A program made the translations under genes and the position numbers. Shown piece by piece: positions 383 to 22,868 of a DNA stretch of 64,000 nucleotides. Each line of letters begins with the position of its first letter. Positions within the stretch are counted from its first letter, which is position 1. Below the pieces are notes generated by a model that saw only the letters and a program-made list of their open reading frames with translations, made no database searches and was not told the origin of the DNA. The stretch covers positions 1 through 64,000 of the forward strand of contig JAFRIE010000029.1 in assembly GCA_017432885.1 (NCBI GenBank), read 5' to 3'. Source of the stretch: Erysipelotrichaceae bacterium (GTDB taxonomy: Bacteria > Bacillota_I > Bacilli_A > Erysipelotrichales > Erysipelotrichaceae).

Positions 383-512
383 GGTTCTGTGGAAAGAAGT
401 GAAAAGCCAGGAGAGAATATCTGAGAGTATTTCTTTATGGCTGAACTTGTTTTGTATAAAAATAATTTGCGAGAAGAATTGAAGTATATCATCAGACAGG
501 CAGCCGCGGCCG

Positions 513-566
513 AAAAAAAGAATACACCCATCGCACAAATCGCCGGATTGATACGAAGGGTGTATT
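513..566 (-). terminator. Intrinsic terminator of the XRE regulator gene
   Basis: AATACACCC (521-529) and GGGTGTATT (558-566) form a 9-bp stem with a long loop of about 28 nt. Read on the minus strand, the stem is followed by a T-rich run (complement of the A-run at 513-519). It lies just past the stop codon of the minus-strand regulator. Confidence 0.5.
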
Positions 567-576
567 TTCGGATTTT

Positions 577-1119
577 CTATACGGCTGCTTCGGGATTCCC
601 GTTTGCCTTGGCAAGATAGCGCCGGATTGTGTTCACCATCTTTTCGTTCTGGAAGTTCGCCTCAATTTCGTCCATGTCTACGGTACGTCCGGAAAGGATC
701 CCCTGGATCAGAACCTCTGCATACATTACCTCACGGGTCATAGGATCCTTCAGATAAGTCAGAAGGTCAATATTCATTTTTTCGTTGATCCCCTCGATCA
801 TTCCTACGAAATAAGTACAGTCTTCGCCGAAAAGTTTTCCTATGCTTTCGATATACTGAAAGCCAGTCTTGACATCCTCAAGTTTCATTAGCCTGCGCTC
901 GACCGGAGCGAGATTTCCTCCGTTGAGTAGCTTATCTGCCGTTGTATTCAGCATATCGCACAGATCGAGAAGAATACCGGTATCAGGAAGCGTGTCCCCG
1001 TTCTCCCATTTTGAGACGGCCTGAAAAGAAATGTTCAGCTTCTCTGCCAGTTCTTTCTGTGTCATGCCGGCAGCTTTCCGCAAATGCTGGATATACTGTC
1101 CGATTTTTAAAGTATCCAT
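577..1119 (-). CDS. XRE-family helix-turn-helix transcriptional regulator
   Basis: The N-terminal 65 residues are a standard Cro/CI-type helix-turn-helix (IGQYIQHLRKAAGMTQKELA, then SFQAVSKWENGDTLPD), as in XRE-family repressors. The remaining 115 residues form an uncharacterised charged helical domain. The start is well placed behind AAGGAGG on the minus strand. The gene stands alone and is convergent with the preceding AraC-type gene. Its target is unknown. It is divergent from the hypothetical gene at 1313, so autoregulation or control of that gene from the shared 190-bp region is possible but is inference. Confidence 0.85.
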   Translation of the reverse strand: MDTLKIGQYIQHLRKAAGMTQKELAEKLNISFQAVSKWENGDTLPDTGILLDLCDMLNTTADKLLNGGNLAPVERRLMKLEDVKTGFQYIESIGKLFGEDCTYFVGMIEGINEKMNIDLLTYLKDPMTREVMYAEVLIQGILSGRTVDMDEIEANFQNEKMVNTIRRYLAKANGNPEAAV

Positions 1120-18451: not shown

Positions 18452-19057
18452 ATGCGTGAATTGATAAACGATCCTTTTTATGAACTGATTGGTAAATACG
18501 ACAGATGCATCATCGATTACTGTCTGATAGAAGATGATACGCCTTATCAGGGATACCGTTCCCATAAAGATGCGATCCTCTTTGCGATGCTCAAAGTGAT
18601 AGAACGGTATATCGATACGCAGTTAAAAGAGGAGATTCTTTATTGCAGAAAAGTTCAGGACGAACCGTTTCTGTGGAATCTGGATATCGGGAAAGCAAAA
18701 GCCCATCCGATCGATCAGGCAGAACTGCTGCATGTGCCTAAGATACTGCGGACAGACCATATCGGTCAGAGATTTTACGACTGCGGCTTTCCGAACCCTT
18801 TAGAAGGCGAACAGATCCCGTACTGGTACGCTTTCTGGGAGACTCCCCACACATCGGGATACGGACCCGATGATTTCCGCAAGGTTAATTCCGTTCTGTT
18901 TCCTATGGGAACTGATGAACTGGAAGTATATGAGTGGACGACAGACTGGTCCAACTATTTTGATGCCGGTCACGAATGGTGGGGAACGGCCTGCTGGAGC
19001 GTATACGATCCGCGCATGAACAGATACGTGGTTATCCTGGCGGAAACGACAGACTGA
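18452..19057 (+). CDS. Hypothetical protein, 201 aa
   Basis: I do not recognise the family. The protein is soluble and acidic. Its C-terminal half is rich in Trp and Tyr (PYWYAFWETPHTSGYGPDD, VYEWTTDWSNYFDAG, EWWGTACWSVYD). The start is ATG 18452, behind AAAGGAGAACC. It lies 37 nt after the DUF1848 gene in the same direction and is probably co-transcribed with it. Repeated tryptophans and an Asp/Glu-rich surface hint at a compact domain rather than an enzyme with an obvious catalytic signature, but this is only impression. Confidence 0.65.
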   Translation: MRELINDPFYELIGKYDRCIIDYCLIEDDTPYQGYRSHKDAILFAMLKVIERYIDTQLKEEILYCRKVQDEPFLWNLDIGKAKAHPIDQAELLHVPKILRTDHIGQRFYDCGFPNPLEGEQIPYWYAFWETPHTSGYGPDDFRKVNSVLFPMGTDELEVYEWTTDWSNYFDAGHEWWGTACWSVYDPRMNRYVVILAETTD

Positions 19058-19105
19058 AAAGCCGCATATATGATGTGTATTATTGATCCCGTCATTATGG
19101 AAATA

Positions 19106-19114
19106 TGTTAGAAT
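19106..19114 (+). promoter_or_regulatory. Extended -10 promoter of the magnesium operon
   Basis: TGTTAGAAT (19106-19114) is an extended -10 (TGn plus TAGAAT). A weak TTGATC lies 20 nt upstream (19083-19088). The predicted TSS near 19121 puts the leader-peptide ORF at the 5' end of the mRNA. Confidence 0.5.
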
Positions 19115-19138
19115 ATTGATAAAGAAAGAGGTATATAC

Positions 19139-19204
19139 ATGGAAGCTGGTGAAGTTCCTTTATCGTTAAGATTCATCTGGCGGCCTGATCCGATCTTTTT
19201 CTGA
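19139..19204 (+). CDS. Putative regulatory leader peptide of mgtA, 21 aa
   Basis: A 22-codon ORF with its own ribosome binding site (AGAGG, 19127-19131, 7 nt before ATG) lies directly upstream of the magnesium ATPase gene. The peptide begins MEAGEVP and ends WRPDPIFF, so it has an acidic start and a Pro-Asp-Pro motif. Acidic and proline-rich leader peptides (MgtL in Salmonella) cause ribosome destabilisation at low magnesium and switch on mgtA. The sequence here is unrelated to MgtL, but shape and position are similar. Codons 14-16 lie on one arm of a competing RNA structure with the terminator-like hairpin at 19217-19240. Function is inference; the ORF, its ribosome binding site and the structures are directly visible. 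Confidence 0.6.
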   Translation: MEAGEVPLSLRFIWRPDPIFF

Positions 19205-19242
19205 TTGATTGAATGGAAAGCCGCCGTTGCAGGAGGCTTTTT
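19179..19242 (+). promoter_or_regulatory. Attenuator with mutually exclusive hairpins masking the mgtA ribosome binding site
   Basis: AAAGCC-G-CC (19217-19225) pairs with GG-A-GGCTTT (19232-19240), followed by T residues: a terminator-like hairpin whose right arm contains the AGGAGG (19231-19236) of mgtA. The competing arm GGCGGC (19179-19184), inside the leader ORF, can pair with GCCGCC (19220-19225) and would free AGGAGG. A ribosome finishing the leader at UGA 19202-19204 would cover the first arm and allow the closed hairpin. Early drop-off would leave it free. This is a model from base pairing. Confidence 0.6.
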
Positions 19243-19244
19243 AT

Positions 19245-21860
19245 ATGGAGAAAAACAATAAGAAAACCGCGAATGTTGTCGATGAAAAACTGACATCTTT
19301 TTCGCTGATGCCGGCACCGGAGGTGTTTCGACATTTTAACGTAAACAACGACGGACTGGATGCCGAAAAGATCGAAGAAGGAAGAGAAAAATACGGTCCG
19401 AACATCATCAGTACCGGCAAACAGGATTCGGTTTTAACCAGGATCAGGGACGCTCTGATCAATCCGTTCAATGTCGTCCTGCTGCTGGTCATTGCAGTCA
19501 GCTATTTCACTGATGTCGTACTGGCAAGCACACCTTCCTATGCAACCATCGTCATGCTGGTGATCATTGTTCTGATTTCTTCCGTGACTTCTTTTGTACA
19601 GGCACAGAAATCCGATGCGGCAGCCAAGGCCCTGCAGGAGATGATCGTCACCAAGGTCAATGTTGTGAGACAGGGGATGAAGATGCAGATCAGCATCGAG
19701 GACTGCGTGCCGGGCGATCTGGTCATTCTGGGTTCCGGCGATCTGATCCCGGGCGATGTGCGCTTTGTCGAGACAAAGGACCTTTTCGTTGATCAGGCGC
19801 AGCTGACCGGTGAATCCAATCCGGTAGAAAAGTATTCCGATTATCGAGAAGCGGAGAACATTACCGATCTTTCCAATATCGGTTTCATGGGTTCCGATAT
19901 CGTTTCTGGTTCCGCCAGGGCCATTGTCATAGCGACCGGCAACCGGACTTATTTCGGCAACATGTCAAAGACGCTGAACAATCAGAATGAAAAGAGCATC
20001 TTTGACAAGAACATGGAGTCCATTACATCCCTGCTGATCCGATTCATGCTGGTAATGGTTCCGGTCATCTTTGCCGCCAACTATTTCACTAAGAATGACC
20101 TTCTGGATTCAGTGATCTTTGCGATTACGATCGCTGTCGGCCTTATGCCGGAAATGCTGCCGGTTATGATCACCTCGTCACTGGCGAAGGGTGCGATCTC
20201 CATGAGCAAGAAAAAGACGATCGTCAAACATCTGGGTTCCATCCAGACCTTTGGCGAGATGGATATCCTGTGTACTGACAAGACGGGAACACTGACCCAG
20301 GACGAGATCATTCTGGAAAAGTACCTGGATGCCAACGGCAAGGAAGATATCCGGGTCCTGAGACATGCCTTTTTGAACAGTTTTTTCCAGACTGGATTAA
20401 AGAACCTGATGGACAGGGCAATTATTGCCCGCGGTGAAAAGGAAGGCCTTGACTATCTGAAGAAATCCTATGTCAGAGAAGACGAGATCCCGTTCGACTT
20501 CGCCAGAAGAAAGATGTCGGTCGTGTTGAGAGACCGTAAACTGAAAAGACAGCTGATCACCAAGGGTGCCGTTGATGAGATCATTGCCAACTGTGCTTTT
20601 GTGGAAATAGACGGAGAAGTCAAGCCGATGGATGAGGAACGGATGAAGAACGCTTATCGGATCTCCGAGGAAAACGGCGAGGAAGGGATCCGGGTCATCG
20701 CTGTTGCCCAGAAAAACGAGATCCCGGACATTGACGAGTTTTCTTCCGAAGACGAGAAGGATATGGTTCTGCTGGGATTCATCGGTTTCCTCGATCCTCC
20801 GAAAGAGTCCTCGGTCAGCGCAATTGAAAGACTGAAAAACAACGGTATCCGTACCGTTGTCCTGACAGGCGATTCCAAGGCGGTCGCGATCAATATCTGC
20901 AAGAGGATCGGAATCGATGCGACCTACAGCTATTCCGGTTCGGATGTGGAACTGATGAACGACGGGCAGCTGAAGAACGCCTGCAAGAAAGCCCAGATCT
21001 TTGCGAAGCTCAATCCGTTGCAGAAGAAAAGGATCGTCGAGACTTTCCAGGATCTTGGCCACGTAGTCGGCTACATGGGTGACGGCATCAACGACGCACC
21101 TCCTCTGAAACAGGCCGATGTCGGTATTTCCGTCGATACGGCGGTCGATATTGCCAAGGAAGTTGCGGATATCATCCTGCTGGAAAAAGACCTGAACGTT
21201 CTGGATGAAGGTGTCATTGAAGGACGCAGGACCTTCGCAAACATGAATAAATATCTGAAGATGGCACTGTCCGGCAACTTCGGAAATATGATCTCGGTAC
21301 TGATTGCCTCCCTGGTTCTGCCTTTCCTGCCGCTGAAGCCGGTACATATCCTGGTACAGAATATCCTGAATGACTTTGCACAGTTCGGTATGCCTTACGA
21401 CAATGTTGAAAAGGAATATATCGACAAACCGATGGAATGGGATACCGCATCTCTGCGACAGTTCATGTTCTACTTCGGTCTGACATCGACGGTTCTGGAT
21501 CTTCTGTGCTTTGCGGTACTGTGGTTTGTTTTCGGTTTTAATACCGTAGAAAAAGCGGAACTGTTCCAGTGCGGATGGTTCATGTTCGGCGTGATCTCAC
21601 AGACGGCGGTCATTCATACGATACGGACACATCGTTTCCCGTTTGTCAACGGCAGAGCGGGCTACCAGCTGACGCTGTCTACTCTGGCTGTTGTAGCGCT
21701 GACACTGTTTCTGGGCTTAAGCAGATTTGCCTACATTCTGGATATGGAACCTCTGTCTGTCACTTATGTAATGTGGCTGGGGATTCTTATAATTATCTAC
21801 CTACTGCTTGCCCAGTTGATGAAACGCATTTATATCAAGAAATTCCGGAAATGGATCTAG
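19245..21860 (+). CDS. mgtA: Magnesium-translocating P-type ATPase
   Basis: The 871-aa product is a P3B-type Mg2+ importing ATPase. Visible elements are the A-domain TGES motif (QAQLTGESNPV), the PEMLP motif in the membrane (VGLMPEMLPVMITSSLAKG), the phosphorylation site DKTGTLT with Asp345, and the hinge MGDGINDAPPLKQADVGIS. C-terminal helices carry the QNILNDFAQFGMPYDNV signature of MgtA/MgtB. It imports Mg2+ at ATP expense under limitation. ATG 19245 is chosen over an upstream in-frame ATG at 19209, because AGGAGG lies 8 nt before 19245. A leader peptide and attenuator precede it. An MgtE-like sensor gene follows after 12 nt. Confidence 0.95.
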   Translation: MEKNNKKTANVVDEKLTSFSLMPAPEVFRHFNVNNDGLDAEKIEEGREKYGPNIISTGKQDSVLTRIRDALINPFNVVLLLVIAVSYFTDVVLASTPSYATIVMLVIIVLISSVTSFVQAQKSDAAAKALQEMIVTKVNVVRQGMKMQISIEDCVPGDLVILGSGDLIPGDVRFVETKDLFVDQAQLTGESNPVEKYSDYREAENITDLSNIGFMGSDIVSGSARAIVIATGNRTYFGNMSKTLNNQNEKSIFDKNMESITSLLIRFMLVMVPVIFAANYFTKNDLLDSVIFAITIAVGLMPEMLPVMITSSLAKGAISMSKKKTIVKHLGSIQTFGEMDILCTDKTGTLTQDEIILEKYLDANGKEDIRVLRHAFLNSFFQTGLKNLMDRAIIARGEKEGLDYLKKSYVREDEIPFDFARRKMSVVLRDRKLKRQLITKGAVDEIIANCAFVEIDGEVKPMDEERMKNAYRISEENGEEGIRVIAVAQKNEIPDIDEFSSEDEKDMVLLGFIGFLDPPKESSVSAIERLKNNGIRTVVLTGDSKAVAINICKRIGIDATYSYSGSDVELMNDGQLKNACKKAQIFAKLNPLQKKRIVETFQDLGHVVGYMGDGINDAPPLKQADVGISVDTAVDIAKEVADIILLEKDLNVLDEGVIEGRRTFANMNKYLKMALSGNFGNMISVLIASLVLPFLPLKPVHILVQNILNDFAQFGMPYDNVEKEYIDKPMEWDTASLRQFMFYFGLTSTVLDLLCFAVLWFVFGFNTVEKAELFQCGWFMFGVISQTAVIHTIRTHRFPFVNGRAGYQLTLSTLAVVALTLFLGLSRFAYILDMEPLSVTYVMWLGILIIIYLLLAQLMKRIYIKKFRKWI

Positions 21861-21872
21861 AAAGGAGCAGAT

Positions 21873-22868
21873 ATGGAAAACAAAATCATGGAAGAAAACA
21901 TCGAAGAAAGAAACTATACGCAGGAAATATTCGATCTGATCCGCAAGACGAAGAATTCAAAACTTCTGGCTCAGACCCTGACCAATTACCACGACAACGA
22001 TATTGCAGATGCCTTGACCTATCTGTCACCGGATGAAAGAAAGAGACTGTATAAGGCGATCGGCATTGAAGCCACATCCCGCATCTTCGCCTATCTGGAT
22101 GAAGATGTCGACAAGTACTTTGCCGAACTGGAGAATGAGAAGGCTGCCGATATCCTGGAAGAAATGGATGCCGACGACGCCATCGATATCCTGGAAGAAC
22201 TGGATAAAAAGAAAGCCGATGCGATCATCAGCCTGATCGAACCGGAATCCAAGAGCGATATCCAGCTGATTAAATCTTATAAGGAAAAGGAATTCGGTTC
22301 ATTGATGACGACCAACTATATTACTCTGGAATACGGTATCGGCATCAAGAAATCGATCGAGCAGCTGATTGAAGAAGCGGAAGAGAACGACAACATTGAA
22401 ACGCTGTATATCGTAAAAGAAGGGAAGTTCTACGGTGCCTTGACCTTAAGAGACCTGCTGATCACAAAGAAAGACGAAGATCTCGACGACAAGATCATCC
22501 TGTCGTATCCGTTTGTCTACGACCGTGAAGAGATTACCGATGCCGCCATTGATACCCTTGCAGACTACTCGGAAGATTCCATTCCGGTCTTAAATAAGGA
22601 AAACAATCAGATCGTCGGTGTCATCACGTCCGCCGATATCGTGGAACTGATCAATGACGAAGAAGAAAAGATCGAAGAGAAAGAGGAAGAAAGGGTCCGA
22701 AAGACCGACTGGTATGAACTGATCGCCTTTGCCCTGCTGCTGGTACTGGGACTCAACACTCTGCTGGATATCATTCCTTCCTATACCTATCTGGAAGCGG
22801 CTGTCGTCATCATTGCTGTTGCTCTGGAAGCGTACAGCCACTTTGTTTTTAGACGCCAGCAGCAATAA
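21873..22868 (+). CDS. MgtE-like cytoplasmic Mg2+-sensor protein lacking the channel domain
   Basis: A 331-aa protein. Residues about 15-118 form the MgtE N domain (NDIADALTYLSPDERKRLYK, AADILEEMDADDAIDILEEL). Residues about 120-260 hold two CBS domains (GSLMTTNYITLEYG, SIPVLNKENNQIVGVITSAD). True MgtE channels then have five helices. Here, after an acidic/basic linker, only two short helices remain (roughly residues 280-298 and 304-324), so it cannot form the MgtE pore. Its gene is 12 nt downstream of mgtA with a strong AAAGGAG. It is likely a Mg2+-responsive membrane partner or regulator of the ATPase; the partnership is inference from operon and domain content. Confidence 0.82.
   Translation: MENKIMEENIEERNYTQEIFDLIRKTKNSKLLAQTLTNYHDNDIADALTYLSPDERKRLYKAIGIEATSRIFAYLDEDVDKYFAELENEKAADILEEMDADDAIDILEELDKKKADAIISLIEPESKSDIQLIKSYKEKEFGSLMTTNYITLEYGIGIKKSIEQLIEEAEENDNIETLYIVKEGKFYGALTLRDLLITKKDEDLDDKIILSYPFVYDREEITDAAIDTLADYSEDSIPVLNKENNQIVGVITSADIVELINDEEEKIEEKEEERVRKTDWYELIAFALLLVLGLNTLLDIIPSYTYLEAAVVIIAVALEAYSHFVFRRQQQ

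Follow-up and report, generated by a model that had tools for sequence, protein, structure and literature searches.

What controls mgtA in this Erysipelotrichaceae genome, and does the short ORF preceding it take part in that control? A sequence-only reading of the window (the whole 64,000-nucleotide stretch of DNA analyzed) had proposed that a 21-codon leader ORF with its own Shine–Dalgarno (SD) sequence acts together with alternative hairpins to regulate a Mg2+ ATPase operon. The leader ORF and its SD, the GGCGGC and GCCGCC segments and the buried AGGAGG all lie where that reading had placed them (Table 1), and the downstream gene proved to encode a true Mg2+ P-type ATPase.

The leader and its operon

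The spacing between the leader ORF and mgtA is 41 nt, and the ATG of mgtA occupies positions 19245–19247. Upstream of the leader ATG, 12 of the 14 genus leaders have a TGN-TAnnnT element at a distance of 21–30 nt, and the −10 element of the other two reads TAAAAT; as all genus leaders thus have an extended or near-consensus −10 element at this distance, the leader probably begins the transcript, which in the window would start near 19121. Six leaders from sister genera have TATAAT 27–29 nt 5′ of the leader ATG. The next gene of the operon adjoins mgtA on its 3′ side in 15 other loci of the genus. Its product carries the Mg2+-sensing half of MgtE and a C-terminal hydrophobic hairpin, and could serve as a Mg2+-dependent brake on MgtA.

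Table 1. Positions of the leader elements and operon genes within the window
Feature	Position	Strand	Basis
Extended −10 promoter element, TGT-TAGAAT	19106–19114	+	24 nt 5′ of leader ATG
Leader ORF Shine–Dalgarno, GAAAGAGG	19124–19131	+	Sequence; 7 nt 5′ of ATG
Leader ORF, ATG...TGA, 21 codons, peptide MEAGEVPLSLRFIWRPDPIFF	19139–19204	+	Start codon conserved in 15/15 leader-bearing genus genomes
Codons 2–9 (E-A-G-E-V-P-L-S), conserved; proposed ribosome-destabilizing acidic/Pro segment	19142–19165	+	Genus alignment, pattern search
RNA segment 1, GGCGGC, within leader ORF; anti-sequestering arm	19179–19184	+	RNA conservation, pair counts
RNA segment 2, GCCGCC, common to both alternative helices (full arm with preceding AAA, 19217–19225)	19220–19225	+	
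RNA segment 3, mgtA Shine–Dalgarno AGGAGG	19231–19236	+	Sequence
OFF hairpin, hides mgtA SD, ends in U-run	19213–19244	+	Folding z, shuffle scan
mgtA, Mg2+-transporting P-type ATPase, 871 aa	19245–21860	+	TIGR01524, 1026 bits
MgtE_N–CBS protein, next gene of the operon, without MgtE transport domain	21873–22868	+	PF03448 and PF00571 only

Conservation within the genus

MgtA homologues yielded 14 complete leaders from the genus, and a fifteenth (L177) was found with the leader pattern. When the whole family was searched, 15 genomes matched the pattern, all of them from the genus and with a single copy apiece; a reversed control pattern occurred nowhere. The leader sits 5′ of mgtA in the 14 genomes that have both on one contig, and an SD precedes the leader ATG in every relative. 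Merdibacter massiliensis and an uncultured Erysipelotrichaceae MAG have leaders that also occur, unchanged, in family genomes (L038/L109 and L079/L086, respectively).

All 15 genus leaders start with M(E/D)xx(E/D)(V/I/N)PLS, conserving acidic residues 2 and 5 and Pro7, and the acid at residue 2 is encoded by GAA or GAC. Beyond codon 9, the peptides vary in sequence, length and stop position, the stop codon falling immediately 5′ of segment 1 in L014 and immediately 3′ of it in L010. The earlier expectation of an ORF conserved among relatives therefore stands for the N-terminus, M(E/D)xx(E/D)xPLS, but not for the PDPIFF ending, which is present in no relative. The core of segment 1, GCGGC, begins 41–48 nt 3′ of the ATG and is read in phases 0, 1 and 2; because all three reading phases occur, segment 1 is conserved as RNA and not as peptide. 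With neither its sequence nor its frame kept, the C-terminal PDPIFF was rejected as a sensor, and with it the role suggested for WRPDPIFF. Stalling at this end of the peptide would, moreover, place the ribosome over segment 1, keeping mgtA OFF.

Codons 7–9 (CCT-TTA-TCG, 19157–19165) do not vary at any of their nine nucleotides across the 15 genomes even though TTA is a minor Leu codon (in the window, 6.6% of Leu codons are TTA and 59% CTG). No pairing partner was found for this stretch, whose nucleotide conservation is stricter than ribosome drop-off requires. Pairing between CCTTTATCG and the region around the leader SD, assessed by eye, is not kept in relatives and was rejected.

Alternative helices of the leader RNA

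Segment 2 of the window genus (AAAGCCGCC) can pair with either segment 1 (GGCGGCT) or the mgtA SD (GGAGGCTTT), and these two compete for it. In the OFF hairpin, positions 19213–19222 pair with 19235–19244, and the CC at 19224–19225 with the GG at 19232–19233. We scanned the leaders for duplexes and compared the scores with those of 60 dinucleotide shuffles per leader. The mutually exclusive three-segment arrangement of the window outscored 60/60 shuffles; the proposed combination of a leader peptide and a hairpin switch is supported. Across the 14 genus leaders tested, no leader had more than 1/60 shuffles that matched the arrangement, and the switch exceeded shuffles at P ≤ 0.05 in 34/67 loci overall. 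The 39-nt OFF hairpin has a minimum free energy of −14.6 kcal/mol (z = −2.96; 3/200 shuffles fold equally well), whereas the fold of the complete leader is unexceptional (z = −1.27).

Covarying hairpins had also been predicted. The prediction held for the helix of segments 1 and 2, which in a 20-leader alignment shows double changes at 3 pairs and a covariation score reached by 0/500 shuffles. The helix of segments 2 and 3 is paired in 94% of cells with little covariation, because its segments are nearly invariant. Because MAFFT does not align the start codons of the leaders correctly across genera, pairs were counted over the interval between segment 1 and mgtA. The part of the leaders preceding segment 1 showed no conserved structure, and no Rfam family covers the leader of the window; a weak match to Phe_leader (E 0.33, far under the cut-off) spans the generic hairpin only.

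When the two states were forced, the ON and OFF folds differed by at most about 8 kcal/mol, and once segment 1 was masked the OFF hairpin formed in 19/19 leaders computed. In the window leader, OFF has the lower energy by 4 kcal/mol and is favored at equilibrium, so the ON fold would need to form cotranscriptionally. The U-run behind the earlier description of the hairpin as terminator-like is interrupted in one relative (L003), which points to SD occlusion, not termination, as the common output.

Leaders in sister genera and across Bacillota

Leaders of sister genera (L071–L077) encode peptides of the form M(S/T)xxxDYHSR or near it and retain the three-segment architecture with partly different stems (GCGGTCATGCTGC / GCAGCAT..GACCGCC / GGAGG). 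Five of the six leaders outscored 60/60 shuffles; L076, the remaining one, outscored 56/60. With one invariant acid and no Pro, the DYHSR motif is, judged by its residues, weaker than the EPDP-type motifs known for drop-off. L028 and L030 show the same switch logic, but here it ends in a true terminator (segments GCGTTAAATAA / TTATTTAACGC / GGGCGTTTTTTTT in L028). At L105, L114, L129, L132 and L139, a recurring pair, CTGTACTTCC ... GGAGGTACAG, hides the SD just 5′ of mgtA; it is apparently another shared expression platform, found in Clostridia and Lactococcus.

We surveyed the regions upstream of mgtA in the class, the family and 80 named-record loci, a sample weighted toward the relatives of the query and not a census, with loci that are phylogenetically nonindependent. 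Strong-SD short ORFs before mgtA include MEDPLSR, MEEPQSR, MEDSQSR and MEGQSC and, in named records, MDSNPRSRLC (Scatolibacter), MDSDGNPRRYR (Gemmiger), MEDPDTDG (Tissierellia) and METGSQCG (Lacrimispora). The mgtA leader ORF of Lactococcus cremoris is MESQSINSPEPER and lies downstream of an M-box, and genomes of mycoplasma type, which read TGA, have MELQSGERSS or MELPSCERYS before mgtA. Strong-SD uORFs starting with M-D/E were found at 31 of 109 mgtA loci; shuffled sequences gave 0.5 on average and 3 at most.

To describe their composition, we picked one uORF per locus on SD strength alone (n = 46), a choice that may miss the functional uORF in several loci with an M-box. Residue 2 is acidic in 30/46 (GAA, GAT or GAC), compared with 5.7 under codon permutation. 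By the same permutation, acids at codons 2–5 (59 vs. 22.6 expected), Ser/Gly in codons 2–8 (89 vs. 56) and Arg/Lys in codons 6–16 (94 vs. 65) are enriched, and hydrophobic residues in codons 2–8 are depleted (38 vs. 83). Among background short ORFs, drawn from the window and the bodies of the loci, an acid at residue 2 occurs in 4/96. The suggestion that the window peptide represents a distinct Gram-positive class is thus supported for Bacillota uORFs, and the class is broader than had been proposed. Whether Bacillota mgtA genes share a fast-evolving class of leaders (M-Asp/Glu followed by small or acidic residues and then Arg) in which ribosome abortion senses Mg2+ and acts on varied RNA switches is, in our view, evenly balanced; such a class would take in some mycoplasma-type genomes and many M-box-bearing mgtA genes.

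In about 20 loci, an M-box is combined with a leader ORF placed between the aptamer and mgtA (L035, L039, L040, L083, L099, L100, L102, L104, L105, L107, L111, L124, L129, L139, L144, L148, L151, L153, L157 and L163). These loci have two candidate Mg2+ sensors in series. L156 (Bacillus sp. FJAT-27264) has two M-boxes on opposite strands 5′ of mgtA, at 115–289 (−) and 460–632 (+).

Proposed mechanism and alternatives

The model that we propose builds on computed features: the ORF, the conservation of its N-terminus, both helices and their conservation, the position of the promoter, and the repeated occurrence before mgtA of leader ORFs with an M-acidic start. We consider it fairly probable that the leader is a Mg2+-responsive switch working like MgtL and MgtQ. 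With sufficient Mg2+, the whole leader ORF would be translated and ribosomes would mask or unfold segment 1, leaving segment 2 to pair with segment 3 and hide the SD and start region of mgtA, possibly with added transcription termination at the U-run. At low Mg2+, the acidic/Pro start (codons 2–9, E..E.PLS) would destabilize the ribosome and cause it to abort before segment 1; segment 1 would then form its helix with segment 2, the mgtA SD would be exposed, and MgtA and the MgtE_N–CBS protein would be made. We infer that the signal is Mg2+, that it is sensed through ribosome drop-off, and that the main output is at translation, not termination.

Published work provides precedents for such a sensor. 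In Escherichia coli, ribosomes translating MgtL dissociate at EPDP at low Mg2+, the leader RNA switches and mgtA is transcribed, and mutation of Glu2 and Asp4 abolishes the response to low Mg2+ (PMC11282234). In Salmonella MgtQ, ribosomes are destabilized by Asp2 and Glu5, which control whether the mgtB SD is exposed (PMC8092293). As Glu2, Glu5 and Pro7 of the window leader precede segment 1, and a ribosome-free segment 1 would free the SD, drop-off at low Mg2+ would switch mgtA ON.

The ribosome could instead stall on the codons for the conserved PLS (or DYHS), just leaving segment 1 free and mgtA ON, in response to Mg2+ or to slow decoding of CCT-TTA-TCG. The invariance of codons 7–9 despite the minor Leu codon is the best reason for keeping this alternative; moreover, the distance of segment 1 from the ATG (about 41–48 nt) places it just beyond the footprint of a ribosome at codon 9, and Ser is retained though its codon is TCG here and AGT elsewhere. 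In mycoplasma-type leaders, however, segment 1 starts about 6 nt past the conserved Ser codon, where a stalled ribosome would mask it, and the feature common to Bacillota is the acids at codons 2–5 and no single arrest motif. As arrest would not give the ON state in the mycoplasma-type leaders, we favor drop-off and regard arrest as possible but rather unlikely.

A less probable alternative, to which we give little weight, is an attenuator that monitors translation in general, such that any loss of leader translation, whether by low initiation, amino-acid shortage or ribosome defects, turns mgtA ON and the acids play no specific role in sensing Mg2+. The anatomy of the switch would by itself react to any such loss, and ribosome function depends on Mg2+ in itself; an attenuator of this kind nevertheless needs neither the codon-2 acids, so frequent relative to the 4% background, nor their enrichment at codons 2–5. 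It is highly improbable that the ORF is incidental and the RNA a riboswitch-like metal aptamer: CCTTTATCG and the three segments are conserved at the nucleotide level, but the leader start codon and SD are invariably retained, the residue-2 acid is kept through different codons (GAA/GAC in the genus, GAA/GAT/GAC more widely), Ser is preserved across two codon families, and neither a fitting Rfam family nor any conserved structure in the RNA preceding segment 1 was observed.

Implications

Sensing of Mg2+ through nascent-chain-induced destabilization of the ribosome is documented for the enterobacterial MgtL and MgtQ. If the leaders described here work alike, the ribosome itself would be a common Mg2+ sensor in Gram-positive bacteria, and M-boxes would often be merely the first of two Mg2+ checkpoints before mgtA. 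Acidic-leader sensing would then be ancient or repeatedly evolved, and in many cases would lie downstream of an RNA aptamer that also binds Mg2+. The diverged natural leaders would also form a data set on N-terminal sequences that cause ribosome abortion, so far studied mainly in E. coli.

Comparison with known systems

A search of open-licence papers found no description of the Bacillota leaders. The M-box (ykoK) riboswitch (RF00380) governs mgtA orthologues in the same phylum but is a direct Mg2+ aptamer, independent of translation, and it has no match in the window. The nearest case in those papers, the Rv1805A uORF2 of the Mycobacterium tuberculosis pe20 operon (PMC12810186), compared by its description only, is likewise a conserved small uORF, located 3′ of an M-box, with its N-terminus and Pro7 conserved; it differs in preceding pe20/ppe31 instead of mgtA and is described as specific to mycobacteria.

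The window leader also resembles the leaders of Mg2+ ATPase genes in enterobacteria. MgtL is, like the window leader, a short SD-preceded ORF before an orthologous mgtA, in which only the acidic/Pro N-terminus, M(E/D)PDPTPL in MgtL, is conserved and the C-terminus is variable; alternative RNA folds set by full translation of the ORF are a further likeness, for the window leader predicted from its anatomy. The resemblance of the acidic/Pro start to MgtL, pointed out earlier, does not extend to the Rfam family: RF01056 (Magnesium-II) has no match even at E ≤ 5 in 19040–19300, whereas the E. coli leader used as a control scored 125.8 bits. The sequences are so short that homology of the peptides cannot be judged. 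The visible output in the window is SD occlusion, with or without a U-run, in contrast to the Rho-dependent termination of MgtL; in addition, the window promoter abuts the ORF, and the motif is E..E.PLS instead of EPDP. Like the window leader, MgtQ is a tiny ORF in which residues 2 and 5 are acidic and a Pro is conserved; other shared traits are alternative stems that hide or free the SD of a Mg2+ ATPase gene, and control of translation. MgtQ has four segments, lies between genes within an operon and is favored in its SD-freeing stem by a start-proximal ribosome, whereas the window leader, at the 5′ end of its transcript, has three, and its ON fold would be favored by the absence of translation. 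Outside RF01056 and RF00380 by test, the window leader is MgtL/MgtQ-like by its anatomy.
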